From contig NZ_BAFN01000001.1 of assembly GCF_000949635.1 (NCBI RefSeq), positions 62,001 to 126,000 of the forward strand: 64,000 bases of DNA, in the 5' to 3' direction. Source of the DNA: Candidatus Brocadia sinica JPN1 (GTDB taxonomy: Bacteria; Planctomycetota; Brocadiia; Brocadiales; Brocadiaceae). A model generated the notes under the pieces. It was not told the origin of the DNA. It saw only the letters and a list, made by a program, of their open reading frames with translations, and ran no database searches. Positions 20,588 through 35,818 of this stretch are shown piece by piece (the stretch's first letter is position 1; each line of letters opens with the position of its first letter). The translations under genes and the position numbers were made by a program.

Positions 20588-21673
20588 TTACTCCCCTTCA
20601 GATTTACATACAAAAGCGATTAGGCGTTCCACAAGCAAGTAAACCAGTCCGGAGAAGGCGGTCAGCCAGGCCGATAGCGCTATGTATACAAAGCAGCGTG
20701 GAATCACGTGCAGAAATTCAAGATCCATCGCCCGGGCCATCTGAAATGTGCAAGCGGTATACATGCCCAGAGGAAAGATCGCTCCCCAATATAAGGGGTC
20801 GTACCGCAACGGAAATCGTTTGTAGACATACCTCCAGGCGGCCAGAATAAAAAGCATGGGGATCCACCACGTCCCGGTCGCCCAAAAAAACACCGTAAAA
20901 CCCTTCAGAAAGGGGAGCAGTGACCGAAGGAATGGAGCGTCAGGAGCGTTGATAATCAACAGAGAACCGGCAAGTGTGGAGATGGCCATCGCACCCATGT
21001 TGATCCAGTAAGGTGGCGTCAGGTCACCGGGAGAAAACCTGAAGAACGTGTAACGGTAGAAAATGAGGGAAATCATCCAGATGTAGAGCATGCCGCCCCA
21101 CAACCACATGGACAGGGCAAAGAAATTTACCTCACGCTTATACGGTTGTTCCCAGTGTGATGCTATGAGGGCGCTCAGGACAGCGATCGACTGGGTGGAA
21201 ACGACAGCAAGCAGCCACGCACCGGTAATGCCCTCATCCAGAAGCGGCTTATTTTCCTTAATGGTAAGTGCAGTAAAAATGGTGTAGGTCAGAGCTATCC
21301 AGAGGACGATTCCCAGAATCCATAAAAATATTGCTATGCGGTAGTTTCCTGAGATCAACACGAACTGGCTGCCGAGAACGCAGGATCCGGCAATGGACGT
21401 GAAGAAACCAGGCCCACGTTTATGGTCGACCATATCGCTGAAGAACTGTCTCCTGAACCAAATGACTCGCAACACATTCAAGAACCATAAGATCAAATAA
21501 ACGATGATATTCAGCCAGAACAGGGCAAAAGCGACAAATCGCATTCCTAACAAGTGGGCTGCGATGGAAATAATACCCGTGGCCATAACCATTGCAAAAT
21601 AGGCCGGGGACAAATCCTTTACACTCTCTTTCAGGCCATTCCTGAGAAGTGAATAAGTGTCAACAAGAACCAT
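20588..21673 (-). CDS. TDT-family transporter (TehA/SLAC1/Mae1-like)
   Basis: Ten-helix anion or dicarboxylate channel family. Seen: 361 residues with LSPAYFAMVMATGIISIAAHLLG at about 21-43 (family signature), GPGFFTSIAGSCVLGSQFVL and regular hydrophobic segments to the end. The substrate is not predictable (malate, sulfite, tellurite or nitrate are known for relatives). Odd: the first residues, MVLVDTYSLL, do not look like a TDT start but do resemble the beginning of a VapC toxin (MxLVDTSVxI), and the ATG sits exactly where VapC should begin, one base after the vapB stop. The gene may therefore be a natural junction between vapC and the transporter. Confidence 0.82.
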   Translation of the reverse strand: MVLVDTYSLLRNGLKESVKDLSPAYFAMVMATGIISIAAHLLGMRFVAFALFWLNIIVYLILWFLNVLRVIWFRRQFFSDMVDHKRGPGFFTSIAGSCVLGSQFVLISGNYRIAIFLWILGIVLWIALTYTIFTALTIKENKPLLDEGITGAWLLAVVSTQSIAVLSALIASHWEQPYKREVNFFALSMWLWGGMLYIWMISLIFYRYTFFRFSPGDLTPPYWINMGAMAISTLAGSLLIINAPDAPFLRSLLPFLKGFTVFFWATGTWWIPMLFILAAWRYVYKRFPLRYDPLYWGAIFPLGMYTACTFQMARAMDLEFLHVIPRCFVYIALSAWLTAFSGLVYLLVERLIAFVCKSEGE

Positions 21674-21674
21674 C

Positions 21675-21872
21675 TTATGTGCCTGCCGCTCTTCTGCGGG
21701 GTATTATCTCTAATTTCTTTTCAGTTCCCCCCAGTTTCGCAAGTCTCCTGGCACTTTCTCTCGCGATAAGTGCTTCGAGGCCGAGCCTGACCAGAGACGT
21801 CTTTTCCTTAATACCGGTCAACTTCGTTGCCTTATCAAGCAATTCATCTTCTATGTTTATTGTTGTTCTCAT
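21675..21872 (-). CDS. VapB-type antitoxin without a toxin gene
   Basis: Seen: 65 residues starting MRTTINIEDELLDKATKLTG, the ribbon-helix-helix domain of DUF2191/VapB antitoxins, with a basic C-terminus. The start at 21872 is fixed by AGGAGGT six bases upstream; a longer frame to 21977 is unlikely. Known: VapB neutralises the PIN-domain RNase VapC encoded immediately downstream. Here the next gene is the TDT transporter; no PIN domain is present. Either an orphan antitoxin or the survivor of a deletion. Confidence 0.8.
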   Translation of the reverse strand: MRTTINIEDELLDKATKLTGIKEKTSLVRLGLEALIARESARRLAKLGGTEKKLEIIPRRRAAGT

Positions 21873-22128
21873 GAACTTACCTCCTGTTAAATATGCATTA
21901 TTGTATGTATTAGCATGCATTGAAAAGATATCATTGTCAAGAAATATCTGGTACGCATATGGGGTTAGAGTTATCATAACAGTTCAACCCACCGCAGAGA
22001 CGCAAAAGACGCAAAGAAAAACTTTAACCAGTAATTATGTTAATAGGGCAAAAAACAGCGTCATTACTACTGCACTGAATACACCAATCAATTAATTTAC
22101 CTCATTACCCGTATTTCCCAGCGGTAAG

Positions 22129-22347
22129 TTATTCTCCACTTTCCTGCAATACCTGGTGGGTTCCACCGCATTTGTTGCAACGAAAAGCGCCTGGTTCAAT
22201 CTCTCCGTGCTCATACATGGTTGCCAACTCCATTGCATGTTCTTCCGTGTTGGCATACGCAACGAGGGTGTCCAGTTCGGTGTAAATCTTGTAACAATTG
22301 AATGGATGTACCTCACCGTCTACAATTGCATATAAATTTTTGCTCAT
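22129..22347 (-). CDS. Small conserved-type protein with a zinc-ribbon-like C-terminus
   Basis: Seen: 72 residues, MSKNLYAIVDGEVHPFN at the start and one CNKCGG pair near the C-terminus. The ATG at 22347 has a GGAAAGGGGGA SD just upstream. No membrane segment or signal peptide. Function unknown. It is the last host gene before the integrated element; the 290 bp between it and the element boundary should hold the original hypD upstream region. Confidence 0.6.
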   Translation of the reverse strand: MSKNLYAIVDGEVHPFNCYKIYTELDTLVAYANTEEHAMELATMYEHGEIEPGAFRCNKCGGTHQVLQESGE

Positions 22348-22636
22348 ATTTTCCCCCTTTCCTGAAGTATTTTTTTTAAACTTAACACCAGAGTACACTG
22401 AGAAATCTCTGAAAATCAACAAGTTACAAGTTTTATAGCCTCATTCCGCTGTATCTATTATTTCCTGGCTCAGTATACACGATCTAATCTTCTGATATTA
22501 ACCCACGCAATAAAACTATACAAAAATACGCCAAAACAAACAATATGAAATTGCCTTGAATCGGCTGAGATTAAAAGTAAAATCAAGAAATATTGGTTCT
22601 TCGGGAAATAGCGTTGAAACAAGGTATGAATAACAC

Positions 22637-22660
22637 CTTTTGATATTTTCTATGAAATAC
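22637..22660 (+). repeat. attL: Left attachment site (attL) of the integrated element
   Basis: A 24-bp sequence (begins CTTTTGATATTTTC, ends ATGAAATAC) that recurs perfectly at 34482-34505. It lies 43 bp from the 3-prime end of the integrase gene, as expected for the end of an integrase-bearing element. Its last nine bases are the first three codons of hypD. Sequence diverges at once outside the 24 bp on both sides. Confidence 0.9.
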
Positions 22661-22702
22661 CCGGATATTCCACAACACATTGATAAGTAAGGACTTATAA
22701 AA

Positions 22703-23905
22703 TTACGCAGTTTTATAAATCGTACGTAGCTCGTACTCTTTCAAGCTTAGAACATGTTTGGTGAATTTTTCAACAGCTTCTTTCTTGTCGTCCAGGTCTC
22801 TATGGACATAGGTCATAGTAGTATTTAAATTTGTATGGCCGAGCATTTTTGATGCGATAGAAACGTCTTGAACAACCTCGGTGATTAAAGTTGCGTTGGT
22901 ATGACGCAATAAATGGAAGGAGGCACCAGATAGCCCCATCTTCTTAAACACCCTTATAAAATGATTACTGCACTCGCCAGCAATTTTATGATTCACTTCC
23001 CCATCGTAAAATAAGTGCTCCTTTGCATCGCCTGCCGATTCCTTATACTTCTTTAATTCTCCCACCAGATAACTTGACAACGGCAAGGCGACAACCCTCC
23101 CTGTCTTCTGTGCAATGGTCGTAAGCGTTGCATTCTGGAAGTCTATATTTGACCACTTTAAAGCCATGACATCCATGAGCCGAAGTCCTGTAAACATCCC
23201 TATAAGAATCGCCATGCGCTCCCGTCCCATAGGCAATACAGATTCATCAAGGATTCGCTTGATTTCTTCATTGGTCAATATCCTCTTGCGGGTCTCATCC
23301 ACCTTTAACCGCTTAACCCCCTGCATAGGATTACTGTTTACCACCCGCTCTTGTACAGCCATATCAAGAATAAGCCTTAAGACAGAACAATACTGATTCA
23401 CGGTAGAAGCCTTTGCCCCATCTTTTTGCACAATATCCGTGCAGAATCGTTGTATCAGGACAGCATTAAGTTTAGATACCTCGAAGCCTCCAAGATGTTT
23501 TGCAATGGCATTCACCGCCGTTTGACGGTTCACAAAAGTGTTTTCTGGCACACTCCCCTTGATATACTCTAAATACTTTCTGGAATAGGCTTCCACCGTG
23601 ACTTTAGGCATTTTCTGCAAGATAGGAAGGTCGAATAACCCCCTTTGAACATTTCTTACTATCTCTTGGTATGCCTCTTTTGCTTCCGTCTTCGTGAATC
23701 CGGGTTTTACAATGCTTCGCCAAGTTCCGTGCTGATCCCTAAACTCTATTGACCATCCCCCGCATGGACTTGGCACGTCCTCTGGACAGTATTTTCCGCG
23801 CTTGCCGTTACAACTAACACCACCCTGAATAACCTTGCCATATCTATCCCCTTCCACCCGCTTGCCCTTGCATGCTGAATGATATTTTTTCCACCTTACC
23901 GCCAT
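22703..23905 (-). CDS. int: Tyrosine recombinase / phage integrase
   Basis: Catalyses site-specific insertion and excision of the element. Seen: 400 residues; Cys-rich N-terminal region (residues ~10-50), SAM-like core-binding domain at about 105-185, and catalytic domain with the first Arg in GMFTGLRLMDV, HLLRHTNAT (His/Arg box) and the final MLGHTNLNTTMTYVHRD with the nucleophilic Tyr. Complete. It starts with ATG 35 bp after a terminator-like hairpin, so it is probably a separate transcription unit, and ends 43 bp from attL. Confidence 0.95.
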   Translation of the reverse strand: MAVRWKKYHSACKGKRVEGDRYGKVIQGGVSCNGKRGKYCPEDVPSPCGGWSIEFRDQHGTWRSIVKPGFTKTEAKEAYQEIVRNVQRGLFDLPILQKMPKVTVEAYSRKYLEYIKGSVPENTFVNRQTAVNAIAKHLGGFEVSKLNAVLIQRFCTDIVQKDGAKASTVNQYCSVLRLILDMAVQERVVNSNPMQGVKRLKVDETRKRILTNEEIKRILDESVLPMGRERMAILIGMFTGLRLMDVMALKWSNIDFQNATLTTIAQKTGRVVALPLSSYLVGELKKYKESAGDAKEHLFYDGEVNHKIAGECSNHFIRVFKKMGLSGASFHLLRHTNATLITEVVQDVSIASKMLGHTNLNTTMTYVHRDLDDKKEAVEKFTKHVLSLKEYELRTIYKTA

Positions 23906-23918
23906 TATTCCACCGTCC

Positions 23919-23980
23919 TTTCATGGAATAAAAAAAGAAGGCAGTTAACCAAGTGTAGGACGGTACACCTGGCCACTGCC
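23919..23980 (-). terminator. Hairpin with U-run before int; copy 1 of a repeated RNA structure
   Basis: On the minus strand the 41 bases 23980-23940 form a stem (GGCAGT/ACTGCC, then CCAGGTGTA/TACACTTGG) with the six-base loop CCGTCC, followed by CTTCTTTTTTTATT. As an intrinsic terminator it would end the zinc-ribbon transcript before int. The upper stem and loop match the hairpin at 24287-24333 with compensatory changes, so it may also have a specific function. Confidence 0.75.
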
Positions 23981-24056
23981 TTTGATTGCCTGAGTCTCCC
24001 CAAGCAAATATTGTTTTGCGTTTCCGTCCAAACGCCATCGTATCTAAAGTTAACTT

Positions 24057-24263
24057 CTAAGCTGCTTCGCTTGCTTCCAACTGCCTGGCTTTCTTCTCGC
24101 TCTCATTCATCTCGACAATAGCTTCATTTATCACCGCTCGCGGTATTGCTGCCCCACCGTTGCAGCCGTTGGGACATTTACCTGTGGCTATCCCATCAGA
24201 CAAAACATAGAGTTCTAACTTCCCATTACAAATTGTGCAAAATACTTCAAACGTGCTATCCAT
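24057..24263 (-). CDS. Small zinc-ribbon protein of the element
   Basis: Seen: 68 residues with CTIC (residues 9-12) and CPNGC (about 30-34), a four-Cys zinc-ribbon pattern, then a charged helical tail (NEAIVEMNESEKKARQLEASE). Start fixed at ATG 24263 by AAAAAAGGAGG upstream. It is preceded by its own promoter (24399-24427) and a structured leader. Function unknown; size and position suggest a regulator or DNA-binding accessory of the element. Confidence 0.65.
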   Translation of the reverse strand: MDSTFEVFCTICNGKLELYVLSDGIATGKCPNGCNGGAAIPRAVINEAIVEMNESEKKARQLEASEAA

Positions 24264-24286
24264 ACAGCCTCCTTTTTTCAACATAA

Positions 24287-24333
24287 AGGGCAACAAAGCT
24301 AAGTGCAAGGCAGTGCACCTAACTTGTTGCCCT
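24287..24333 (-). ncRNA. Structured leader hairpin; copy 2 of a repeated RNA structure
   Basis: On the minus strand 24333-24287 folds into one long hairpin: AGGGCAACAA pairs with TTGTTGCCCT, then GTTAGGTGCA pairs with TGCACTTAGC, with loop CTGCCT. No U-run follows; the SD AAAAAAGGAGG of the zinc-ribbon gene begins about a dozen bases later. It therefore sits in the 5-prime leader of that gene. Compared with the hairpin at 23940-23980, the 22-base core differs only by transitions, two of them compensatory pair changes; both are preceded by GGCAAT and a second GGCA. Confidence 0.6.
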
Positions 24334-24398
24334 CTATTGCCCGATTTTTTCAGGCATATATCTTTAGCGTCTGCCTACGCCGTTATCAATGGACATAT

Positions 24399-24427
24399 GT
24401 ATTACCGTACTCTTAAACCATTGTCAA
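24399..24427 (-). promoter_or_regulatory. Candidate sigma-70 promoter for the zinc-ribbon gene and its leader
   Basis: Minus strand: TTGACA (24427-24422), a 17-base spacer, TAATAC (24404-24399). This is near-consensus. Transcription would start around 24392, giving a leader of about 130 bases that includes a small GCGT/ACGC hairpin and the long hairpin at 24333-24287. It lies 120 bp beyond the methylase stop. Confidence 0.6.
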
Positions 24428-24548
24428 GTACTACCTGTAGCATGCTAAATATAGCAAGGCAACCCCGTCCAGATCATCCAGCATACCGCCCTGATTACTT
24501 CGGAACCTATCAGCCAGATAAGGTAATCCGTATATGGATACAACCTCA

Positions 24549-25382
24549 TTAGTTTGCCTCCAAAAAGTTTGCTGTTCTTGCAGGTTCAAAATTCGTGTAC
24601 AATACCTCAACGGTTCTTGGCTTTGATTCCCCTGTTGATTTATGGCTGCCCTTGAAGCTTGAATACTCATGCCGATGCCAGCCCCGGTACAATTCATCGT
24701 ATAGGCCGTTCTGATAATGTGAGATCATGGCCTTACCCTTTATGCCGTGAAGTAGCTCTGCAAGGGTACGGTGGTCTTCCGATGCAAAGGAATCCTTGCC
24801 GTAATAATGTTCTGCATTCAGATAGGGAGGATCGCAATAAAACAGGGTGTCTTCTGAATCATACCGTTTGATACATTCGCCATAAGGCAAATTTTCAATG
24901 GTAACGTTCCGCAACCTCCTGGCTATGTCCTCAAAGATATCAATGGCCGTCCTGAATGATTGCGCCGGGTTCCGTCCGGTGGTAGAAGGTAGAGCAAACC
25001 CGCCCCGCCTCATATCAGCCCCATAGGTAGAACGATTCAGGTAATACCACTGTGTAGAAGCTTCCACAGGATCGCCAGGGATATTCCCTTTCTTCCAGTT
25101 TGTTCTTATCTCCTGCCATAGACTTCTGGAATAAGGCATAAGATTTAAGAAGTTAATCAACATTTGGCATTTCCCCGGTTCCTGAATGACCTTGAAAAAA
25201 TTCACCAGGTGATTATCAATATCGCTGAGGACTTCCACCTGGGAAGGTCTCTTGGCAAAGAGAAGATGCCCAGCTCCTGCAAAGGGTTCGACATAACAAA
25301 CATGCTCAGGAACCTTCTCGGATAACCAGCCAACAAGAAAACTTTTACCGCCTATGCGATTAACAGGTGATTTTAATTTCAT
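24549..25382 (-). CDS. D12-class DNA adenine N6-methyltransferase
   Basis: Methylates adenine in DNA. Seen: 277 residues; N-terminal SPVNRIGGKSFLVGWL, SAM-binding motif I YVEPFAGAGHLLFA at about 30-43, catalytic motif IV DPPYLNAEHYYG at about 184-195. Complete and typical for Dam-like phage methylases. No restriction endonuclease is adjacent, so it is probably an orphan methylase protecting or regulating the element. The target is not predictable by eye. Confidence 0.92.
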   Translation of the reverse strand: MKLKSPVNRIGGKSFLVGWLSEKVPEHVCYVEPFAGAGHLLFAKRPSQVEVLSDIDNHLVNFFKVIQEPGKCQMLINFLNLMPYSRSLWQEIRTNWKKGNIPGDPVEASTQWYYLNRSTYGADMRRGGFALPSTTGRNPAQSFRTAIDIFEDIARRLRNVTIENLPYGECIKRYDSEDTLFYCDPPYLNAEHYYGKDSFASEDHRTLAELLHGIKGKAMISHYQNGLYDELYRGWHRHEYSSFKGSHKSTGESKPRTVEVLYTNFEPARTANFLEAN

Positions 25383-25427
25383 ATAGTTTTACATCTCCTT
25401 AATTGCTGTTCTAAGAATCCACCAAAA

Positions 25428-26288
25428 TTAGAAACTATTGGCGACAGAACCCACCCCCTGTCCAGCCGTGCTACCAATCATAAGCCCTGGTGGTCCACCA
25501 AGCATGAAACCACCAACAGCACCACCGATAGTCAACGCTACGCCCATTATGGTTCCTAACGGCGATGGCTTGTAGTTCGGCGTAGAAACCGTCCGTTCTG
25601 CACCAACAAGCGACCTAACGGCATTACCAAGTATCTCCAAATTACGCACTTCGTTGATCCTTGCGTCAAACCACTTGCGATATTCTGCATCAAGCGACCC
25701 CTGCTCATACTCCCTTGCGTACAAACCAGCCGTGCGCAATAATTCCGCATCGGCTACAGATTGATAGCCAAGTTCAATAGCATGCGATAAGACTCTGTCC
25801 TGCCTTGAGCGTTCATTGTGGTAATTAAGAAAAGACAGCTTGGTCTCTTCGCTATCGTAGAATATCTGTGTATTTACCAAGTCAAGCACTAAGTGTTCCT
25901 TATCATCCCCCATTAAGTACGGTGAATCACCATCAATATACGATTTGATGTTATTGTCATAAGTAGACTTGGCGCTATCGATTACATTGCTAACAGCCTT
26001 GCGAAAATCGGCATCATTACCTTCTAGAAAACTGCCATACAAAACGTTTTTAGTGTAATCGATCCCCACGGCTACAAGCGGGTCTCCGCCTCTCCCACGT
26101 TCAGCGAGCGCATTTATTGCGTCAATTTCGTCCTGTGTCTGCTTTGCGTAAATACTCCCCGTGTATTCTGTGTCTTTGTTCTCATTGTAGAGTTTTTTCG
26201 CCCGATCTAAATATATCGCGGCGCTGTTGTCTGCCCACGACGGCAGATTGCGAATTACTGTAGTTGACGACCCGCTTCCTTTATTCAT
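25428..26288 (-). CDS. Virion-like protein B (paralogue of the next gene)
   Basis: Seen: 286 residues. N-terminus LPSWADNSAAIYLDRAKKLY followed by EYTGSIYAKQT, a pattern found in podovirus tail or internal virion proteins (W..YL.RA...Y.G..A). Middle part mostly helical with LYAREYEQGSLDAEYRKW and GNAVRSLVG, then a Gly-rich hydrophobic C-terminus (GVALTIGGAVGGFMLGG) as in membrane-active ejection proteins. It shares GNAVRSLVG and the overall plan with 26303-27286; the two are 14 bp apart. The virion role is inferred; no database match could be run. Confidence 0.6.
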   Translation of the reverse strand: MNKGSGSSTTVIRNLPSWADNSAAIYLDRAKKLYNENKDTEYTGSIYAKQTQDEIDAINALAERGRGGDPLVAVGIDYTKNVLYGSFLEGNDADFRKAVSNVIDSAKSTYDNNIKSYIDGDSPYLMGDDKEHLVLDLVNTQIFYDSEETKLSFLNYHNERSRQDRVLSHAIELGYQSVADAELLRTAGLYAREYEQGSLDAEYRKWFDARINEVRNLEILGNAVRSLVGAERTVSTPNYKPSPLGTIMGVALTIGGAVGGFMLGGPPGLMIGSTAGQGVGSVANSF

Positions 26289-26302
26289 ACATCCTCGCTA
26301 TG

Positions 26303-27286
26303 TTATTGGGTTAAACTCGGCATTTGCCAGCCAAATATTTGCGCGCCTAATTGCGCCTGAGCGGATACTTCTGGACTTGTCAAACCTGTATCTAATTTGG
26401 GAGCCTGCCAACCAGCAATACTTTTACCAACATCAATATTATTCATACCGCTGTAATCTTGCTTCGACAGCGACATAGTATTGTTTTTGGTCTTACCGAA
26501 GTATTGCGCCGCTAGTCCAGCGCCTGCCAATGCTACTCCAGCGAATTGCGCAAAACCGCCTGGCCTATAAAACGGCCTGGTCTCAGAACTATACGACCCA
26601 ACTAAAGACCTCACGGCGTTACCGTGTATATCAAGCTTTGTTGCCTCATCGCCTTGCTCACTAACCCAAAGCCTATACTTGTCCTCCCTCTTGCCCTGCT
26701 TCCACTCCCTGTCGTAAAGAGCGCCATTGCGAATCAATTCTATGTCTCTTACGCTTTCGTGCCCATAAGGAATAACGTAGCCAAGTAGTCCAATCCTTCT
26801 GTTTTGTTCTGTCTCGTAATCGTCATAGAAAAGGTTTTCGCTTATCTGTAACAACCTCATAATTGTATTTTCGGTCGCCTTAGCCTTCCTTATTGCATGG
26901 CCACTACTACCCCAACACATCAACCGCAAAGCCTCATCGTCTATCGCCGGTATAATATCTTCCTTGAATTCCTTTATGATCAATTCAGCCTGCCTTGCAT
27001 ACTGTGCCTGTATCTTTGTGTTGATGTTAAGCGTTTTACCGCTCAGTATATCGTTTAAGAGTTCTTTGGCCTTCTCTACTATCGGCGAATGGTTTTTGCC
27101 TCTGTCAATAATAGCCTGTATGCCATCTGTTTCGTCAAAGTTTTGTTCGGCGTAGGTGTCGCCATCGTATCTGGTGCTATATACCTTTGTGCTTAGATTG
27201 GCCATGTTTTGCGCTTTTGCCAGATAGAGTTCGGCGTAACTTCTAGCCCAATCCGGCATGTTTTGAGATTCTACAGTACTACCCAT
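26303..27286 (-). CDS. Virion-like protein A (paralogue of the preceding gene)
   Basis: Seen: 327 residues. MPDWARSYAELYLAKAQNMA near the start, RYDGDTYAEQ, DIELIRNGALYDREWKQGKREDKY in the middle, GNAVRSLVG, then GGFAQFAGVALAGAGLAAQYFG and a hydrophilic tail containing GWQAPKL and GWQMPSL near-repeats. Clearly related in plan to 25428-26288. The start codon overlaps the stop of the HTH gene by one base (TAATG). Probably a tail-tip, ejection or capsid-decoration protein; a dedicated satellite function is possible. Confidence 0.6.
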   Translation of the reverse strand: MGSTVESQNMPDWARSYAELYLAKAQNMANLSTKVYSTRYDGDTYAEQNFDETDGIQAIIDRGKNHSPIVEKAKELLNDILSGKTLNINTKIQAQYARQAELIIKEFKEDIIPAIDDEALRLMCWGSSGHAIRKAKATENTIMRLLQISENLFYDDYETEQNRRIGLLGYVIPYGHESVRDIELIRNGALYDREWKQGKREDKYRLWVSEQGDEATKLDIHGNAVRSLVGSYSSETRPFYRPGGFAQFAGVALAGAGLAAQYFGKTKNNTMSLSKQDYSGMNNIDVGKSIAGWQAPKLDTGLTSPEVSAQAQLGAQIFGWQMPSLTQ

Positions 27287-27471
27287 TATTCAACCCTCCT
27301 CCCGTCAATAAACTCTAAAAGATTATCTACAGTGAACCTTACCCCGCGCTTACCTGTACCTATACAAGAAATCCGCCCTTCTTTTATCGCATTCCAAAGG
27401 GTGTCCTCCCGCATGTTGAAAAATCTGGCTGCGTCATCAAGCGTGAAAAAGCTTGCCTTATTCCTTATCAT
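27286..27471 (-). CDS. AlpA/Xis-like helix-turn-helix protein 1
   Basis: Seen: 61 residues, a single winged HTH of the excisionase/HTH-17 type (FFTLDDAARFFNMREDTLWNAIKEG, then RGVRFTVDNLLEFI). The ATG at 27471 overlaps the upstream HTH gene stop by ATGA. Known: AlpA proteins in satellites activate int or act as excisionase. Two such genes in tandem are unusual; one may be Xis and the other a regulator. Confidence 0.8.
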   Translation of the reverse strand: MIRNKASFFTLDDAARFFNMREDTLWNAIKEGRISCIGTGKRGVRFTVDNLLEFIDGRRVE

Positions 27472-27701
27472 TTGATGTCCTCCCGCCCGAACCAATTGAA
27501 TTTTGGAGTTACGGTATTTTCTCTGAGGTACACCTCAACCTGCTCCAGGCTAAACCTAATTTGGTTGCCGACCTTAATAAAGGGTATTCGTTTTTGACTT
27601 GTCCATTGGTACAGTGTGCTTTCTTTGACTTTTAACAACTGCGAAAGGTCTGTTATATCCAACAGACAATTGCGTACCTCTACAGTTTTAAACTCCACCA
27701 T
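27468..27701 (-). CDS. AlpA/Xis-like helix-turn-helix protein 2
   Basis: Seen: 77 residues; HTH-17 motif LLDITDLSQLLKVKESTLYQWTSQKRIPFIKVGNQIRFSLEQVEVYL spans residues ~12-58 (canonical turn plus wing). ATGA overlap with the next HTH gene, so the two are co-translated. Lies 67 bp downstream of the ERCC4 nuclease gene. Likely excisionase or transcription activator of the element. Confidence 0.82.
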   Translation of the reverse strand: MVEFKTVEVRNCLLDITDLSQLLKVKESTLYQWTSQKRIPFIKVGNQIRFSLEQVEVYLRENTVTPKFNWFGREDIK

Positions 27702-27768
27702 TCGTTATCTCCATGCGGTCTAATGGGTAAAAAAAAATTAAATAGTTTTCTTCCTTTTAATCTTCTTC

Positions 27769-28212
27769 CTAATGGTCGTGCTGTTTGCGCAAAAAGTGGT
27801 ATAGAATACCTTCTACCATTAAAGCTGCGATTGCCCTATCACATGCAAAGAGAACATGCAGGCCATGCTTTGCGCTAAGTGCTTGCAGTGAACCAACAAC
27901 CGACTCAACTGAAATAGCATTGCGCCAAACACCACGATAGATGTCTGCAAGAGAAGCCTCTACAACTAGCCCGGCATATTCAAAATCCCGCATCCGTTGA
28001 ACCTCACTCATAAACCGCTTGCGCTCAGCACTCAATGATTGCAGGAGGTCTGGAAGGCTCTTACGTTCGATCGTCACTTTGTCTTCGAAATGCTCTAAAC
28101 TGTAATCCCCGGTCTCAAGCTTTGCGATCTTTACTCCTGCATTGTGGAAGACCAGCGGTTTCTTTTCCCTGGTATCCTGGATAATAGTTAAGTCACTACG
28201 CTTAATCGCCAT
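27769..28212 (-). CDS. ERCC4/XPF-family structure-specific nuclease
   Basis: Seen: 147 residues forming a lone ERCC4 domain: DTREKKPLVF (about 13-22), GDYSLE, VTIERKSLPDLLQSL with the catalytic ERK triad at about 49-51, ERKRF and YAGLVVEA. Known: this domain in XPF, Mus81 and some phage proteins cuts branched DNA. No HhH or helicase domain is attached. In this element it could resolve replication or packaging junctions in place of RusA. Overlaps the upstream gene by 11 bp. Confidence 0.88.
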   Translation of the reverse strand: MAIKRSDLTIIQDTREKKPLVFHNAGVKIAKLETGDYSLEHFEDKVTIERKSLPDLLQSLSAERKRFMSEVQRMRDFEYAGLVVEASLADIYRGVWRNAISVESVVGSLQALSAKHGLHVLFACDRAIAALMVEGILYHFLRKQHDH

Positions 28213-28540
28213 AACTCATCATCTCCGATGCCTGCTTTTCATACCTGCGGAAATGGTCAACCATGGTTTCTTGGCTATCGTAAAACCGCCAGTCGGCCAT
28301 CCCCCCGATACTGACCAATCGCATATCAAAAGGCTGACTCTCTAGCCAATCAAAGGTCTCTATAAGGTAAAGCTCATTCGACACCTGAGCTATAACCCGA
28401 CCTTGCCAACACAACTTACCACCTTCAAGTGAAATGAAATACTTATCAACTAACACCGATTTACATATCCCCACAACAATCACCTGCACCCTTTCTTTGT
28501 AGTCTAATACCTTGATCTCTTTGCTCGCTACTCCCCACAC
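28202..28540 (-). CDS. Unknown element protein, about 112 residues
   Basis: Mixed alpha/beta, no Cys pairs, signal peptide or membrane segment (VQVIVVGICKSVLVDKYFISLEGG; RYEKQASEMMSYG near the end). The start is a GTG at 28540 overlapping the upstream gene by 13 bp; other starts are possible. Co-transcribed with the nuclease gene, whose start it overlaps, which suggests a functional pairing. Family not recognised. Confidence 0.6.
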   Translation of the reverse strand: MWGVASKEIKVLDYKERVQVIVVGICKSVLVDKYFISLEGGKLCWQGRVIAQVSNELYLIETFDWLESQPFDMRLVSIGGMADWRFYDSQETMVDHFRRYEKQASEMMSYGD

Positions 28541-28872
28541 ACCTTTTTTATCAGAAACTCACGGATAGCATCACGTTTAAGTGCCGCCTCTATCCCGTTA
28601 GCAACGTTGGTTATATCTGGCATACGCTTTCTTATCCAGTCGATAGGGCAGTACACATTACCGCCGGCGATAATCACCCGGTTCCCTTCCAGCGCACACT
28701 GCTTCATAACGTCTGGATGATTAGCGTCCAGCATGTCCAGGGAAACATAAATTCTCATGTCGCCAGGGATACCAATGCCCATGCCATCTCTATAAGAGTT
28801 GATGTCCACCTCCCCGAATTTGACTTCATGTGCCTTGACCCTCTTGGTTGTCCGTATGATCTTAGGTTCCAT
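28528..28872 (-). CDS. Unknown element protein, about 114 residues
   Basis: Soluble alpha/beta protein, basic N-terminus (IIRTTKRVKAHEVKFGE) and GNRVIIAGGNVYCPIDWI in the second half. ATG 28872 preferred because GGAGGAGGGAAG lies directly upstream. Part of the tightly packed early-gene block between primase and nuclease. Family not recognised. Confidence 0.6.
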   Translation of the reverse strand: MEPKIIRTTKRVKAHEVKFGEVDINSYRDGMGIGIPGDMRIYVSLDMLDANHPDVMKQCALEGNRVIIAGGNVYCPIDWIRKRMPDITNVANGIEAALKRDAIREFLIKKVCGE

Positions 28873-28892
28873 CTTCCCTCCTCCTCTCATTG

Positions 28893-29246
28893 CTAGTTGT
28901 AAGTCGATTTATACCTTTGGATTAAGTCGCATCTGCCGAGTTCTCTGAGGGTTACGCATACAGATTGCCCGCCAGGCTTCCAATAATGAAACCGCCTGTC
29001 GCTATTGAAAGGTATGACCAACACCCCACTTTCTGTCACAAATGGTTGCCGCTGCATGGGTTCCGTGTTCTCGCCCATGATTGCCATACGCTCGGCCAAT
29101 TCGTAACCTGCTGTTACCGGCTCAATCTTTCCTTGTTGGATAAATATTTGGGCTGCCTTTTCAGGTAGTTTTACAATGCTCCCAACAGGGAATGTCTTAA
29201 TAGTCCCCTGCACTTTAACCATAAGACTTTGAATGACCTTATACAT
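28893..29246 (-). CDS. Unknown element protein, about 117 residues
   Basis: Seen: MYKVIQSLMVKVQGTIKTFP then VGSIVKLPEKAAQIFIQQGKIEPV, a small beta-rich module reminiscent of head-tail or adaptor-like phage proteins that begin with a binding loop, followed by a region with HYWKPGG. The start at 29246 is favoured by GAGGAGG seven bases upstream and overlaps the primase stop. No firm family assignment. Confidence 0.55.
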   Translation of the reverse strand: MYKVIQSLMVKVQGTIKTFPVGSIVKLPEKAAQIFIQQGKIEPVTAGYELAERMAIMGENTEPMQRQPFVTESGVLVIPFNSDRRFHYWKPGGQSVCVTLRELGRCDLIQRYKSTYN

Positions 29247-31722
29247 TGGCAACCTCCTCCGCAAATTCGACCTCGAAAACCTCAGAGTTTTTGATGTCTA
29301 AATTTTCAACATTGCCCATAGGAATTTCGTTTTTCGGTGTCGGTTTTGGACGATTTTCTATTTGGCAAACACCCTCATTTTTTTGCATGCTGGAAACATA
29401 CTTTTTTTCTATTTGGCTATGTGGCAAACCACATGTGGAAACATCGCCACATTCAGTAAATACGCGGGTTTCCATGTTTCCGGCATGTATTAGTTCATGT
29501 GGCAGCATTCCTTCTATTTGGCATGTTTCCCCCCCTATAGGGGGAAACATTGCCAAGTAGGAATTAGCAGAACCAGGATGCAGCTTAAAGAATTGCTTAC
29601 GTTTCGACCCTTGATACCCTGGGTCGTCCTTTAAGGTACTATCCAGAATCAATTCTTTTCCCAATGCATTTTTCAATGCTGACCTCAATTGTTTCTCCGG
29701 CACGCCTAAAGCTTTTTGTATTTCTTCAAAATCCTTAACGCCGGTTCCTATAAATTGAGTTATACTTTCAATAAGACCCTTGCCCTCACCAAGAACACCT
29801 GAAACATAAGAAATCTTTAGAGTATCTGAATTAAAAAGCAATCGAATCGGAGCGAAGGATGCCAAACGCATTTTCCCCGGATGCAGAGTCAATATTTTCC
29901 CATCATCCATCATTTCTCCCTCCTCTAACACAAACTGGCAATCGACAGCCCCAACAATATCACCCGACCCCCTGGATCGTTCCCTTTTGTCCCCATCCCT
30001 GCTTTTCCGCTCATGGTGGATTATCAAAACCGTAGCATCGGTTTGTTTAATAATCTCACGAAACGCTTGCATGACTTTTGCCATTTCATCCGCGTCGTTT
30101 TCTTTGGCGTTGTGCAGTCGGATTAGAGCGTCAAAGATAACTAAAACATATTCCTCCTTGTTGATAAGGTCAATCAATGCTTTAAGATGTTTAGGATTGT
30201 CTAACTTCACGCCTTGATAATGGATGAAGTGAATTGGCGTATCTTTATCGACGCCCATTTTCTCAATACGGCTGCGGTGAATACTGCCGGGGTTTTCTTC
30301 GTCAATTACCAGTACCTTCCCCCTTTTTAGTGCAGGGAAACGCCCCCAGAGTTTATTCCCATTTGAAACTGCCTCTGCGATCGAAAAAGAAACAACACTT
30401 TTCCCAACACCCGGCAAGGAGGTAAGTAAATTGACCGTGTTTTGATATATAAGAGTCTCTACTAAATATTTCGGACGCTCGCACTGAAGCATGTCTTGGA
30501 TATTTGAGATTTTAAAAAAAAGAGCATTGCTGCCAGATTTCATTAAATCAATACCGGCATCCTTTGCCCTATGAATGATTGTTCCAAAGGTAAATGCACC
30601 CTTATTTGTCCGAAGGCAATTATCGTATTTCTCATCACAGTCCGCCTTGTCGTATTTTGACGAAGCCCCACTTAGCATGTGGAAATACTCACGGCCAGCT
30701 TCGCCAAAGGTATTTGCGATAGCAAAGCCTACGTTCAACCAGGAATCGTAGTCGTCAATGCCAGCCAGGGGTTTGCCAGTGGCAATGATTGCCTGCATAA
30801 TTCGATGATCGTCGTCTCTCGCATGAGGGATGCAGGGGGGTTGTTCTTGCTCCGGCACAGTCTCAGGAACGATGAACGTCTCTGAGTTCTCATTTATATA
30901 TATGTCTGGATCATACGAAACAAACCTTAGCCTGGAAACATCCTTGCAGCTTTTATCGACAACCAAGCCGTAAGTCTTTTTGTAGTAAGCTTCTAGATGT
31001 TGAAAGCTCTCTGCATGATGGTTTTTGTCAATCTTTACCCCAACGGCAAGGCCTTTTCCCCTGCACGAAGCGAAGAGAAACGCCGTAAGTTTGTCTTTAG
31101 TCAGTCTTTGCCGTATCCTGTCCCCCTGCTCAGATAATGCAGGATTGTCCTTATAGTCAATGTCCAAGAGAATAAAGCCGCTATGCACAGCCAACCCCTC
31201 GGCAGACCTCTTCGTAAAGAGTCCGGAGGCCGTGAAACAAGGGAGGCTACTCTTGCATTCCTTCTGCTCCGACTCGTCTTGTGTGCCCCGCAACTTCTCA
31301 ATTGCTGGAATCCACTTTCCGCCGTTCCCAGCTTTAATCCCTTCTAAAATCTTTGCAAGCGTAACTGGTTGTCCTGTAACGTCTTGCACATTTTTATAGC
31401 AATTTACTTCTGTTGTTTTGCATGTAAGCGCCCCCCTGATAGCAGTTCTCAGCCTTGCAGTCCCCACACTCTGGTCTAGCAGCCATTTCAGATAAGGCGC
31501 ATCTTTCTGAGCAACCTCTGAAATAGCTTTCCCTTTGTACTTGCCGAAACGAAGAATAGGCGCGGTATGTGGAAGAAACTTAATAAAGTTTTTGCAAGAA
31601 GGACACGACACCTTTTTATGGTATCCTTTGTTTGGTAGTGAAACTATCTCAATAATGAGATTTTCTGGCTTGTGTATCACGCCGCATTTTTTACAAATTT
31701 CCGTTGATTTTTCTTGTAACAT
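29239..31722 (-). CDS. Primase-helicase replication protein of the element
   Basis: Seen, 827 residues in order: zinc ribbon (CKKCG...CPSC, about 10-42); an ExoX-C-like module (LRFGKYKGKAISEVAQKDAPYLKWLL, about 57-82); a VirE_N/primase-polymerase-like region (about 130-270, HSGFILLDIDYKDNPA, GKGLAVGVKI); a PriCT-2 helical module (DDYDSWLNVGFAIANTFG); a RecA-like AAA ATPase with Walker A SLPGVGKSVVSFSI and Walker B VLVIFDAL; and a winged-helix tail. Known: such proteins prime and unwind DNA for autonomous replication of satellites and plasmids. It is the largest gene of the element, preceded by a terminator-type hairpin. Confidence 0.85.
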   Translation of the reverse strand: MLQEKSTEICKKCGVIHKPENLIIEIVSLPNKGYHKKVSCPSCKNFIKFLPHTAPILRFGKYKGKAISEVAQKDAPYLKWLLDQSVGTARLRTAIRGALTCKTTEVNCYKNVQDVTGQPVTLAKILEGIKAGNGGKWIPAIEKLRGTQDESEQKECKSSLPCFTASGLFTKRSAEGLAVHSGFILLDIDYKDNPALSEQGDRIRQRLTKDKLTAFLFASCRGKGLAVGVKIDKNHHAESFQHLEAYYKKTYGLVVDKSCKDVSRLRFVSYDPDIYINENSETFIVPETVPEQEQPPCIPHARDDDHRIMQAIIATGKPLAGIDDYDSWLNVGFAIANTFGEAGREYFHMLSGASSKYDKADCDEKYDNCLRTNKGAFTFGTIIHRAKDAGIDLMKSGSNALFFKISNIQDMLQCERPKYLVETLIYQNTVNLLTSLPGVGKSVVSFSIAEAVSNGNKLWGRFPALKRGKVLVIDEENPGSIHRSRIEKMGVDKDTPIHFIHYQGVKLDNPKHLKALIDLINKEEYVLVIFDALIRLHNAKENDADEMAKVMQAFREIIKQTDATVLIIHHERKSRDGDKRERSRGSGDIVGAVDCQFVLEEGEMMDDGKILTLHPGKMRLASFAPIRLLFNSDTLKISYVSGVLGEGKGLIESITQFIGTGVKDFEEIQKALGVPEKQLRSALKNALGKELILDSTLKDDPGYQGSKRKQFFKLHPGSANSYLAMFPPIGGETCQIEGMLPHELIHAGNMETRVFTECGDVSTCGLPHSQIEKKYVSSMQKNEGVCQIENRPKPTPKNEIPMGNVENLDIKNSEVFEVEFAEEVANV

Positions 31723-31760
31723 AAGCTAAAATTACTCCTCAAAAAAGTTAAGCTGTGCCA

Positions 31761-31799
31761 ATAAAAAGACCTCCGTCCTGTTTCCCCAGGGTGGAGGTC
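31761..31799 (-). terminator. Intrinsic terminator upstream of the primase gene
   Basis: Minus strand: GACCTCC and GGAGGTC (31799-31793 and 31774-31768) enclose an inner CCTG/CAGG stem with loop GGGAAA, followed by TTTTTAT. It lies between the HTH-protein gene (stop 31855) and the primase start (31722), so it would terminate or attenuate transcription entering the replication block. Confidence 0.75.
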
Positions 31800-31854
31800 A
31801 AACTTTTTACGCCAACCTAATTAGATTTTGTCTTTACAATTCCTCCTAAAAAAG

Positions 31855-32580
31855 TTATTTGCCCTCGAATAGCCTTTCCAGTACACTAACCCAATAAACA
31901 CCCCGTTTACGCTCATCGTCTGAGATTGCTGGCCTCATAAGAATCGCTTTTATTTCCCGTAAAATCACTGAATTGGCTTTGTCTTTTAGACTTGCTAAGT
32001 CATACTGTGCCCTGGCATGTCTTTGTGCCTCGTCTGGCGGAATACCATCTGCTACTAATGAATAGTATGTTACGACATAGTCAACATCGAATAAGGTCGC
32101 CATCAGTGGAATGTCGTTTTTCTCAATGGCTTCCTGCAAAACTTTGTCGAATTCTTTACGGATTTCTGAACGCAACCTGTGGCCGTAATTCCCCGCATCA
32201 CGAAACTCGTCATAACTAACGGTCGGCATCCTAGTTGTTGCTATTTCATCAATCGGCTTTGCGAAGAATTCCGCATCTAATCGCTGTTTCTCCTGGCACT
32301 TAGCCCTAACCGTGCGCATAAAAACGTCTGTAAATTCGATGTGGAGTTTATCAACTAACTCCTTAAATTCCTGCTCCCAGCGCCACTTGTAAAGCAACCC
32401 ACAAGAAACTTTCAGGTCGGACGCAATGGTTGTTTGCTGGAAGTTAGTTAATTGCAACAAAGCTGCGTTGTATTTAACCTTTGGGAAACCGATCCTATCT
32501 CCCCGTGGTGTTCCAGCCCTTTGCGGTTCGGCGTATCTGCCAAGTTTTCCCTTTACAAACTCCTGTAGTATTGTGTTCAT
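31855..32580 (-). CDS. HTH-containing element protein of unknown role
   Basis: Seen: 241 residues, soluble. A HTH-like segment TTIASDLKVSCGLLYKWRWEQEFKEL lies at about 58-83 after a basic N-terminus; the remainder is helical and charged, with LVADGIPPDEAQRHARAQYDLA. The start is set at ATG 32580 after GGGGGGAT; 13 further codons upstream are possible. It may be a terminase small subunit or a regulator; its place next to the long non-coding region favours a DNA-binding control protein. Confidence 0.5.
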   Translation of the reverse strand: MNTILQEFVKGKLGRYAEPQRAGTPRGDRIGFPKVKYNAALLQLTNFQQTTIASDLKVSCGLLYKWRWEQEFKELVDKLHIEFTDVFMRTVRAKCQEKQRLDAEFFAKPIDEIATTRMPTVSYDEFRDAGNYGHRLRSEIRKEFDKVLQEAIEKNDIPLMATLFDVDYVVTYYSLVADGIPPDEAQRHARAQYDLASLKDKANSVILREIKAILMRPAISDDERKRGVYWVSVLERLFEGK

Positions 32581-32710
32581 ACATCCCCCCCAGAATACAG
32601 TAAGACCATTCAAACTCACCTTACCTATATAGGTAAAAAAAAAGGAGTTTTGATTTTAAACTCCCCCATCACAAAATATAATGTCATGTACTCGTAAAAA
32701 AAATATACGC

Positions 32711-32895
32711 AAAAAAATAAAATATATTAATAAATGGCATAAATATTGCTAACTATATATCTAGCATAGGCGCACTCCCATCGGCTTCCTATTGCGCAAA
32801 ACACTATCCCCTCTATATATATATTACTAACCTCAATTCCAAAAAAAAGACACAAAAAATAAAATATATTAATAAATGGCATAAATATTACTAAG
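32711..32895. repeat. Pair of ~40-bp AT-rich direct repeats
   Basis: The units at 32711-32752 and 32853-32895 share the run AAAAAATAAAATATATTAAT, then AAATGGCATAAATATT, and differ mainly near the 3-prime end (GCTAACT vs ACTAAGC). Spacing between the units is about 142 bp. Such AT-rich direct repeats in a non-coding stretch next to replication genes are typical of iteron or DNA-unwinding regions, but binding is inferred only. Confidence 0.75.
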
Positions 32896-33248
32896 CATAT
32901 CTCAAGATAATGTATTCAGTCTGATGTAAAAACAGTGTCCGTTCACAAAATATAATATCATCCTAGTTTTCGTGTTTTCAGTGAACCAAACGCAACACAT
33001 TAAAAAATAAATCACAAGATATGAAATCGTCAATACTTAAAAGAACAACGATTTTGGGTGGTATCCTACAAGGAGGGTAAATTTTTTTTTAAAGCCTGCA
33101 TCATGAGGCATTTTTAAAAAATATGTGCGCTACCAGAAACAGACTTGATAGATTCTCTCGGCACATGCCCCTCGATAGGGGGTGGGGGGTTCGAAGGGGT
33201 GTCCGCCTGGCAGATCGTCCCGATCCAATGGCCATTGATACCATCGAA

Positions 33249-33350
33249 ACCACCTGAAACCACCTCAATACCACCTCTTTTTTTTGAGGTGGTCACCCCT
33301 AATCCCTTGATTTTACTGGGAGAATACCACCTATACCACCTGTACCACCT
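33249..33350. repeat. ACCACCT repeat cluster with a hairpin
   Basis: ACCACCT occurs at 33249, 33259, 33270, 33326, 33335 and 33344; the last three are spaced exactly nine bases apart. The copy at 33270 pairs with GAGGTGGT at 33286-33293 across a T8 loop, forming an 8-bp hairpin. Regular short spacing suggests a protein-binding array. It is not a CRISPR: the units are seven bases and no unique spacers exist. Confidence 0.7.
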
Positions 33351-33823
33351 ATTTTGGAGTATTTCCTATACACACTTTTTACATGGGTTAGTCTTTCGTC
33401 TAGTGTATAAAATTTAAACATCAAATAAAAAACTCCTCCCCCAATCCCTTTGAGATTTCATATAACGTTGGCAGCATTTCCACTTAGAAGGAAAGCATTA
33501 GTGGATGTAGTGGCGTTAGTGACATTGGTTTTCAGAATACCAAAACACCCAATGGGGAATTGTTGCTTGTCATTCGATGCGATCCACGCCCTTTTATTGA
33601 AGGTAGTGGGGAAAGATTCTTCGCTTTTCATCCAGGTGGTTTATGTCTTATACGCCGTAATTGTAGTAACTATTTGCATACAAAGGAGTTGCCACACTTT
33701 GCAACATAACCAACATTATCAGACGTACTTTCCTAAGCCATTAATATGTAAGATGTTATAGACTTTCCCCACTTCCAACATGTCGTCAACTGCCAAATCT
33801 GCCCATCAAAGTATGCTGAAAAC

Positions 33824-34294
33824 CTACCCCTCTTGCTGCGTAAATTCGACATTTACAACTTGCTCTGTAGAATCTTCCCCACTTCCCAAGTCTTTGTATG
33901 CAGAAAGATCAACCAATTCAGTCTCGGCATTCACATTGATGTTTAAATTCCTATTGATTACAGGAGATTCCCGGCGCTGCATTTCCCGGTAAAGTTCCTG
34001 GGCTTCCTTCAAACATATCTCCTCTTTCTTGGATAGCTTCTGCTTCTCTTTGTCTTTAAGCACCTGTACCGCCGTCTGTAAAGTCAGCTTTGCCACGTTG
34101 TGCCCCATTTTCAACATGTCGGGAGCAACCAAATCATAGGATTTAACCCGCTTTTCCAATGCATAAGGCGCTTTGGAACCAGGTTTTCCCTCGTATCCAG
34201 CTAGTCTATAGGCTTCTGAGATCGATTTCCCCGCCGCCCGAAGCGTGGTATATGCTTCCTGTTTGAGTCTTAACTTCCGATTATTTTCTTCCAT
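33824..34294 (-). CDS. Terminase small-subunit-like DNA-binding protein
   Basis: Seen: 156 residues. The N-terminal HTH (YTTLRAAGKSISEAYRLAGYEG, about 15-36) followed by YALEKRVKSY resembles the DNA-recognition domain of TerS-like proteins; a helical middle (LQTAVQVLKDKEKQKLSKKEEICLKEAQELYREMQ) suits oligomerisation. SD CGGAGGT upstream of the ATG. Known: satellites often encode a TerS that redirects a helper's packaging. No TerL is present. A simple regulator cannot be excluded. Confidence 0.55.
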   Translation of the reverse strand: MEENNRKLRLKQEAYTTLRAAGKSISEAYRLAGYEGKPGSKAPYALEKRVKSYDLVAPDMLKMGHNVAKLTLQTAVQVLKDKEKQKLSKKEEICLKEAQELYREMQRRESPVINRNLNINVNAETELVDLSAYKDLGSGEDSTEQVVNVEFTQQEG

Positions 34295-34405
34295 AGATTT
34301 ATACCTCCGAATTGATAATTGTTAAAATCTCCCTTCGTGTCTATTCCGTACTTGCCCACACAAACCGACCCAAACACTACTATGTAAAGCAATGATGAAA
34401 ATGTC

Positions 34406-34433
34406 TTGAATGACTTGAAAATACTGGTAGAAT
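34406..34433 (+). promoter_or_regulatory. Candidate outward promoter of the element reading into hypD
   Basis: TTGAAT (34406-34411), 16-base spacer, TAGAAT (34428-34433) on the plus strand, 64 bp upstream of the hypD ATG. It is inside the element, so after integration it could replace the original hypD promoter, which lies left of 22637. Moderate match to consensus only. Confidence 0.4.
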
Positions 34434-34481
34434 CAAAGCCTATTCAAACACGTCAAACCAGATAAAGAAATAAGCAAAAGG

Positions 34482-34505
34482 CTTTTGATATTTTCTATGA
34501 AATAC
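34482..34505 (+). repeat. attR: Right attachment site (attR), overlapping the hypD start
   Basis: Perfect 24-bp copy of 22637-22660. The ATGAAATAC at its 3-prime end is codons 1-3 of hypD, so integration leaves the coding sequence intact while exchanging everything upstream of it. Confidence 0.9.
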
Positions 34506-35642
34506 ATCGATGAGTTTCGTAACGGAACTATTGCAGCTGGCATATCCAAAAAAATTGCTTCTCTTGTGGAAGGACACGACAGAATTACCATCATGGAGGT
34601 ATGTGGCAGTCATACCATGTCGATATACCGGTATGGACTAAAAAATCTGCTTCCGCCAAATCTGAGATTACTCTCCGGGCCCGGGTGTCCCGTATGTGTT
34701 ACCTCTACAAGTTATATAGACACTGCCATAGCAATGGTACAGAAAACCGATTCATGTTTGGTTTCTGAAAAGGAAGTAATAATAACTACATTTGGTGACA
34801 TGATGAAGGTACCCGGGTCTTCATCGAGTCTTGAAAAAGAACGGGCTAAAGGGGCATCTGTTGCAGTGGTTTATTCGACCCTCGATGCCTTGCGTCTGGC
34901 GGAGAAGCATCCGGATAAACAAATCGTATTCCTGGCCATAGGCTTTGAGACCACCGCGCCAACCATTGCAGCATCGGTTATTGAAGCAGAGAGGAGAGGT
35001 CTGAAAAACTATTTTCTCCTTACAGCACATAAGGTAATGCCACCAGTTATGAAGGCGCTTCTCAAAGACAAAGAATTGAATCTCGATGGATTTCTGTGCC
35101 CGGCGCACGTAAGCGCCATTATCGGATCAAGATCATATGAGTTTATCGCACGAGACTTTCATATTTCTTGTGTTATCGCTGGTTTTGAACCACTCGATAT
35201 CTTGCAAGGTATTTATATGCTTCTTGAGCAAATTGTAAGGAAGGATGCAAGCGTCAGAATTCAATACTCACGGGTGGCAAGGGAGGAAGGAAATCCAACA
35301 GCCCTTTTTCTGTTAGACAGGGTTTTTGAGCCATGTGATGATGAATGGCGCGGACTTGGGCTTATTCCGAAAAGTGGTCTTAAGCTGAGAAACCGTTATG
35401 CATGGTTTGATGCCCTCACGGTATTTCGGATTTCGGATTTCGGATTTCGGATTAATTCAGAAATCCGAAATCCGAAATCCGCATTCAATGGTTGTATCTG
35501 CGGTGATATCCTGAGGGGTATAAAAATACCATCTGAATGCAAACTTTTCAAGAAGGTTTGTAATCCTGAGCATCCTGTAGGTGCATGTATGGTTTCAAAT
35601 GAGGGAACATGTGCCGCATGGTACAAATATGGTGAAACGTGA
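34497..35642 (+). CDS. hypD: HypD, hydrogenase Fe(CN)2CO assembly protein
   Basis: Fe-S scaffold that with HypC builds the Fe(CN)2CO moiety. Seen: MEVCGSHTMSIYRYGL, SGPGCPVCVTS, GFETTAPTIAA, CPAHVSAIIGS, GFEPLDILQGIYML, GCICGDILRGIK and the C-terminal CNPEHPVGACMVSNEGTCAAWYKYG; all key Cys are present. 381 residues. Odd: between FDA and NGCICGD lies an in-frame insert, about 20 residues (VFRISDFGFRINSEIRNPKS), encoded by a DNA palindrome at 35424-35481. Start ATG 34497 aligns with family starts but has no good SD; the attachment site overlaps codons 1-3. Separated from hypF/hypC by the element and other genes. Confidence 0.95.
   Translation: MKYIDEFRNGTIAAGISKKIASLVEGHDRITIMEVCGSHTMSIYRYGLKNLLPPNLRLLSGPGCPVCVTSTSYIDTAIAMVQKTDSCLVSEKEVIITTFGDMMKVPGSSSSLEKERAKGASVAVVYSTLDALRLAEKHPDKQIVFLAIGFETTAPTIAASVIEAERRGLKNYFLLTAHKVMPPVMKALLKDKELNLDGFLCPAHVSAIIGSRSYEFIARDFHISCVIAGFEPLDILQGIYMLLEQIVRKDASVRIQYSRVAREEGNPTALFLLDRVFEPCDDEWRGLGLIPKSGLKLRNRYAWFDALTVFRISDFGFRINSEIRNPKSAFNGCICGDILRGIKIPSECKLFKKVCNPEHPVGACMVSNEGTCAAWYKYGET
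35424..35481. repeat. Palindromic TTTCGGA repeat inserted in hypD
   Basis: Four tandem TTTCGGA units (35424-35451), a short AT-rich centre, then the inverted TCCGAAA units (35464-35481). The arms form a near-perfect hairpin. The repeat length keeps the hypD frame open, adding about 20 residues in a loop between conserved blocks. TTTCGGA/TCCGAAA palindromes of this kind are usually intergenic dispersed repeats. Confidence 0.85.
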
Positions 35643-35818
35643 CCCGAACAAGGCAGATACCACAGCGTTGTCTTTTTGAGCTTCACATGACTCCCAAAGA
35701 TTAAAAATTAAAATAAGATACATTTATTTTGATATTTGATTTTTCATATTTTATTTATTGGTCGCACTTCCTAACATTTGAAACTCTATGAATAGACTTT
35801 CTCTACAAGAAATTGTAT

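Follow-up and report, generated by a model that had tools for sequence, protein, structure and literature searches.

What kind of mobile element has settled at the 5′ end of hypD in the anammox planctomycete Candidatus Brocadia sinica JPN1? The question is raised by a 64,000-nucleotide stretch of its main contig (positions 62001–126000 of NZ_BAFN01000001.1, in a 4.08-Mb genome of three contigs), hereafter the window, whose numbering is used throughout. Within it a segment of 11.85 kb lies between perfect 24-bp repeats, and an earlier note had described this segment as a phage-satellite-like element fitting the phage-inducible chromosomal islands (PICIs). Our analysis makes it probable that the segment is a phage satellite, integrated and dependent on a helper, from a separate satellite lineage of anammox bacteria, and that its two homologs of podovirus-type DNA-ejection proteins, Ej1 and Ej2, would act in helper particles. 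Helper-dependent satellites are favored over prophage remnants because at least 11 reduced, repeat-bounded elements were found and because two siblings of the window element carry an orphan small terminase subunit (TerS).

Insertion site and gene content

The left attachment site (attL, 22637–22660) consists of the 24-bp core CTTTTGATATTTTCTATGAAATAC, of which attR (34482–34505) is an exact duplicate, and the sharp borders proposed earlier are exact to the base. The final nine bases of attR are codons 1–3 of hypD (34497–35642, plus strand; PF01924, 2.1e-145), the integration target, which itself lies outside the element; integration preserved the hypD frame and split the native upstream region off from the gene. 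The repeat pair is the sole long-range direct repeat detected in 21500–36000, where an exact 24-mer pair is expected by chance with a probability below 1e-5 (simple estimate). A check for empty sites revealed two same-genus genomes (L077 and L078) with the hypD locus but no element, the left flank (SLAC1 transporter region) adjoining hypD directly. Given the exact repeats at hypD and these empty sites, the element is a genuine site-specific insertion.

Every predicted gene of the element is on the minus strand. Read from attR, the order is g156, about 1.2 kb of non-coding DNA, a 254-residue helix-turn-helix (HTH) protein, a primase-helicase, g123, g120, g112, an ERCC4-domain nuclease, HTH2, HTH1, Ej2, Ej1, a D12-class N6-adenine DNA methyltransferase (Dam), an 83-residue protein and the integrase, followed by attL. 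Searches with hidden Markov models (HMMs) bore out most of the gene set predicted before: the tyrosine integrase (22703–23905; PF00589, 1e-23), the methyltransferase (24549–25382; PF02086, 2.4e-28), the AlpA-like pair of HTH_17 proteins HTH1 (27286–27495; PF12728, 1.2e-8) and HTH2 (27468–27701; AlpA/excisionase-type, PF12728, 3e-13), the nuclease (27769–28212; PF02732, 1e-10) and the primase-helicase (29239–31722; AAA_25, 1.1e-26; BT4734-like N-terminal domain, 2.4e-17; PriCT_2, 6.4e-16) each matched their own profile family. In profile-library scans no element gene matched families of the large terminase subunit (TerL), portal, capsid or lysis proteins, the very absences reported earlier, and none matched relaxase or conjugation families. 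Methylase matches alone were of note as defence cargo among the element proteins.

Related elements in anammox bacteria

The 123-residue protein g123 (28893–29264), the hallmark of the family, was found in 13 of the 392 genomes of the phylum, which were sampled at one genome per species and include metagenome-assembled genomes (MAGs) with many cut contigs. Twelve of the 13 belong to the anammox family, the named organisms being Ca. Brocadia, Ca. Jettenia ecosi and Ca. Kuenenia hertensis, in agreement with the anammox planctomycete host first suggested. At least 11 repeat-bounded elements of 8.3–11.8 kb, the window element included, are spread over six anammox-family genomes. Ten siblings, spanning 8.3–11.3 kb, have flanking direct repeats of 16–126 bp and neighbor genes for pyruvate kinase, spermidine synthase, TatC, homoserine dehydrogenase and other host proteins. 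The common gene order is integrase, Dam, HTH_17, ERCC4 and/or g123, and primase; homologs of the methyltransferase, a family core gene, occur in almost all siblings and those of HTH2 in siblings as well, and the primase module is swapped across the family among BT4734/PriCT_2/AAA_25, Prim-Pol/PriCT_1/AAA_25 and D5_N/DUF5906 types. The nearest relative, L060, has the same gene set as the window element minus the Ej genes. Within the JPN1 genome itself, a DNA search found partial relatives at several loci, comprising the elements L010, L012 and L013 and the remnants or pieces L009, L011 and L014, some with insertion sequence (IS) elements.

The gene set is thus a recurring unit, present at many sites in anammox genomes. 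Degraded portal, capsid or TerL genes in related insertions, which the earlier note had named as the finding that would speak for a plain prophage remnant, were not recognized: none is labeled in the sibling gene maps, for which part of the sibling open reading frames was scanned against profile libraries, and neither intact nor decayed copies were found here or there. Together with the empty sites, these results uphold the description of a phage-satellite-like element in an anammox planctomycete.

L009 (7364–11840; about 2.506–2.511 Mb of the JPN1 genome) is a remnant of a sister element broken by an IS, with an integrase 96% and a g156 79% identical to those of the window; its end sequence is unlike the hypD site. 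Elements or remnants in three species (L012, L062 and L211) all adjoin the spermidine synthase gene, and this locus is an integration hotspot. Solo or decayed g156 copies lacking most of the element (L195–L200 and L215), situated in one genome at the host locus that L009 occupies, resemble footprints of old insertions. One sibling gene (L010:8813–9715) encodes a 300-residue protein matching phrog_6247 'DNA topoisomerase' (3.7e-60) and no Pfam family.

Ejection proteins, packaging and competing readings

Along most of their length, Ej1 (25428–26288) and its paralog Ej2 (26303–27286; 34% identical) share homology with phrog_4287, 'DNA ejection protein' (2.6e-10 for Ej1; 0.013 for Ej2 alone), and the pair of virion-like proteins proposed earlier is therefore real. 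Ej1 also matches a gene of phage MW202462 that lies in the virion cluster, two genes past the end of the terminase-portal-capsid-stabilization run. A profile scan of IMG/VR, with E-values relative to the candidate stretches, gave 93 Ej relatives, of which 80 were kept. The homolog was on the same strand as, and downstream of, the stabilization gene in all 79 scorable loci (median of 876 bp between matches); a capsid gene was recognized in 53 loci and a portal gene in 28, many of the contigs being truncated. Of 27 aligned Ej-family members, 25 match phrog_4287; profile match and virion-cluster context of the homologs both place the pair in this family. Modeling of the Ej1 fold (pLDDT 65) yielded no significant match in PDB, and the best BFVD matches were proteins of uncultured Caudovirales.

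In the tree, Ej1 and Ej2 pair as a separate clade (100/99) with long branches, as an old duplication within an unsampled lineage would produce; long-branch effects are possible. Unlike members of the phrog_4287 podovirus family, they are a diverged paralog pair without any other virion gene. No Ej gene was found in any sibling of the family, and elsewhere in the 392 Planctomycetota genomes matches occur in two genomes only, from distant families. Both frames are full-length and intact with conserved family residues and tight operon spacing; the stop of HTH1 overlaps the start of Ej2 (TAATG), and the ribosome-binding sequences are good. These features suggest that Ej1 and Ej2 are co-translated with the regulator genes.

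A tentative extension is that helper particles receive internal ejection (pilot) proteins encoded by the satellite, which would alter how, or into which cells, the DNA goes. This would be a hijack at the step of genome delivery rather than of packaging or capsid size, in a satellite family new to anammox bacteria and Planctomycetota. Alternatively, and in our judgment unlikely though a serious contender, the element is a satellite in which Ej1 and Ej2 are passive cargo taken from a podovirus and have no role in particles; the presence of Ej in one family element only and the long tree branches are as expected of such cargo, but two diverged, full-length, in-frame copies within an HTH operon with good ribosome-binding sequences suggest selection.

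Among the siblings, L010 encodes a Terminase_4-type TerS (phrog_83, 4.5e-31; PF05119, 1.1e-16) and L012 a TerS of a different family (phrog_57, 1.1e-30; DUF1441), both orphans without TerL alongside and both situated between the HTH gene and ERCC4; the corresponding stretch of the window element is occupied by HTH1, Ej2 and Ej1. Terminase_4 was found nowhere beyond L010 among 33 family genomes, and neither sibling TerS has IMG/VR relatives. In the window element, the candidate is the 254-residue HTH protein (31855–32619; homolog in L060), whose PHROG matches are all terminase small subunits (phrog_7344, 4.6e-5, residues 54–92) spanning only the HTH of about 40 residues; it has no phage or IMG/VR relatives and no PDB match, and its fold model (pLDDT 42) was uninformative and discarded. 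The TerS-like protein claimed earlier is thus, with its weak match, an unproven candidate in the window element; true orphan TerS genes are present in siblings L010 and L012, and no cos or pac site was identified. The element-terminal protein g156 (33824–34294), which also occurs as solo remnants, has an N-terminus faintly resembling small terminases (E = 0.35 against the Pam5 TerS). Its candidacy as a TerS paired with TerL was rejected, as no such locus was found and g156 either accompanies these elements or stands alone as a remnant.

An integrative element of non-phage origin (a genomic island or mobilizable element) with phage-like replication genes is improbable. Integrase, methylase and primase are by themselves not phage-specific and no helper is known, but relaxase and conjugation families went unmatched by any gene, true small terminases are present in two siblings, and the window element encodes virion proteins. 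The least probable reading is a decayed temperate podovirus, stripped of most virion genes but retaining early genes and the two for ejection. In its favor, Ej homologs otherwise lie in podovirus virion clusters, and the element encodes an HTH protein weakly similar to TerS. Against it, at least ten further repeat-bounded elements at other sites show the same reduced gene set with TerL, portal or capsid recognized in none, L060 retains nearly everything without Ej, and the perfect att repeats, the empty sites and the unbroken frames suit a functional element.

For the helper of the presumed satellite, the search covered a few profile families. The JPN1 genome has no TerL of the families tested (PF03354 and phrog_2) and no portal match (phrog_1216); since TerL of these families is missing from the host genome, the element depends on something else. 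The TerL-bearing contigs of relatives (G378, G308, G395 and G153) contain no Ej by HMM search and no match to the sibling TerS genes. Among them, contig 224 of G378 (L259, L218 and L260), from a same-genus MAG with 4% contamination, is 40 kb long and carries TerL and portal genes and no Ej homolog; it is possibly an anammox phage or a contaminant.

Several points weigh against the helper-dependent satellite. The helper, excision and packaging are presumptive, and no common cos/pac site was identified; the TerS of the window element is weak and many siblings have no recognizable one; Ej, in a single element, may have been captured by chance; no phage homolog of Ej exceeds 27% identity, so a podovirus helper is hypothetical; and the putative origin is a sequence pattern only.

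If the element is such a satellite, it might work as follows. Infection or induction of the helper would raise the HTH/AlpA-type protein, and the HTH proteins would drive integrase to excise a circle, which the primase-helicase would copy from the iteron region. Either a small terminase of the satellite or a common packaging site would then steer the DNA into helper particles. Ej1 and Ej2, translated with the HTH genes, would be added to, or substituted for, the ejection proteins inside a podovirus-like helper particle, and the satellite DNA would be delivered. The D12 methylase may protect the DNA from restriction, and the ERCC4 nuclease may serve replication or recombination or attack helper DNA.

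Relation to known satellites and further features

Compared with the PICI features listed in PMC6092414, the window element has an integrase with a specific attachment site (PF00589, the 24-bp core and empty sites), two PF12728 proteins as AlpA/MerR-type regulators, a primase-helicase as its own replication module with a putative iteron origin, and a size of about 10 kb; TerL, portal, capsid and lysis genes are absent, and some family members have an orphan TerS. It differs in its virion ejection proteins, in a family core that includes the D12 methylase, the ERCC4 nuclease and g123, in its BT4734/PriCT_2/AAA_25 primase and in its Planctomycetota host. Because the two ejection-protein homologs conflict with the lack of structural genes in PICIs and the core is different, the element is most likely PICI-like in its working but a member of a separate satellite family, and we do not class it among the PICIs. 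The PICI-type fit proposed before thus holds for the similar gene set and not for membership, the element's own TerS being unproven; the remark that the virion-like pair sets the element apart from classical PICIs proved right.

Capsid-forming PICIs (cf-PICIs) likewise are satellites encoding some virion proteins, but theirs include capsids, whereas the window element has ejection proteins only and no capsid, portal or TerL match. The phage-inducible chromosomal minimalist islands (PICMIs) of Vibrio, whose model accepts PF12728 as AlpA (PMC10803314), share int, HTH/alpA, primase, small size and the lack of recognized capsid-remodeling genes; the window element is longer and has another primase, another att site, other core genes and the Ej pair.

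Most of the phage satellites described so far are from Gammaproteobacteria, Firmicutes and a few marine or soil groups (PMC10803314, PMC11389934). Full-text literature searches, of incomplete coverage, returned no paper linking phage satellites with Planctomycetes or Planctomycetota and none on satellite ejection proteins, and this family of small satellite-like elements is apparently unreported before. Its spread across anammox genera, with one genome holding several copies, points to an active but uncharacterized phage world around bacteria that are important in the nitrogen cycle and hard to grow in pure culture. If true, satellite-encoded ejection proteins would be a new hijacking step and predict a podovirus-like helper.

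The putative replication origin (32633–33480) is AT-rich with direct repeats and an iteron-like ACCACCT array (six direct copies in 33249–33350, one inverted). Over the non-coding region of about 1.2 kb, ACCACCT occurs eight times on both strands, whereas in 2,000 shuffles the most frequent 7-mer averaged 3.5 copies and never exceeded 6. Other mobile elements, and phages too, have the C-terminal domain of g123 downstream of primase genes, often after primase-helicase genes in Verrucomicrobiota, other genomes and IMG/VR contigs (L168–L176 and L230–L247); it is an undescribed replication-linked domain.

Among the proteins without assigned function, g112 (28202–28540; 112 residues) has a homolog in L060, and g120 (28528–28890; 120 residues) and the 83-residue protein (24057–24308) have no family match. 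An Rfam scan gave no match, and counts from promoter and terminator scans were at chance level; a terminator-like hairpin between the TerS-like and primase genes (31768–31799, plus strand) is a consensus match only, with the overall count near chance. Immediately left of the element lies a VapB-type antitoxin gene (21675–21977). Near its 3′ end, hypD contains in frame a palindromic repeat (TTTCGGATTTCGGATT..., 35423–35486; peptide FRISDFGFRINSEIRNPKSAF), which is found at dozens of other positions across genomes of the genus; this in-frame repeat insertion recalls the Rickettsia palindromic elements.

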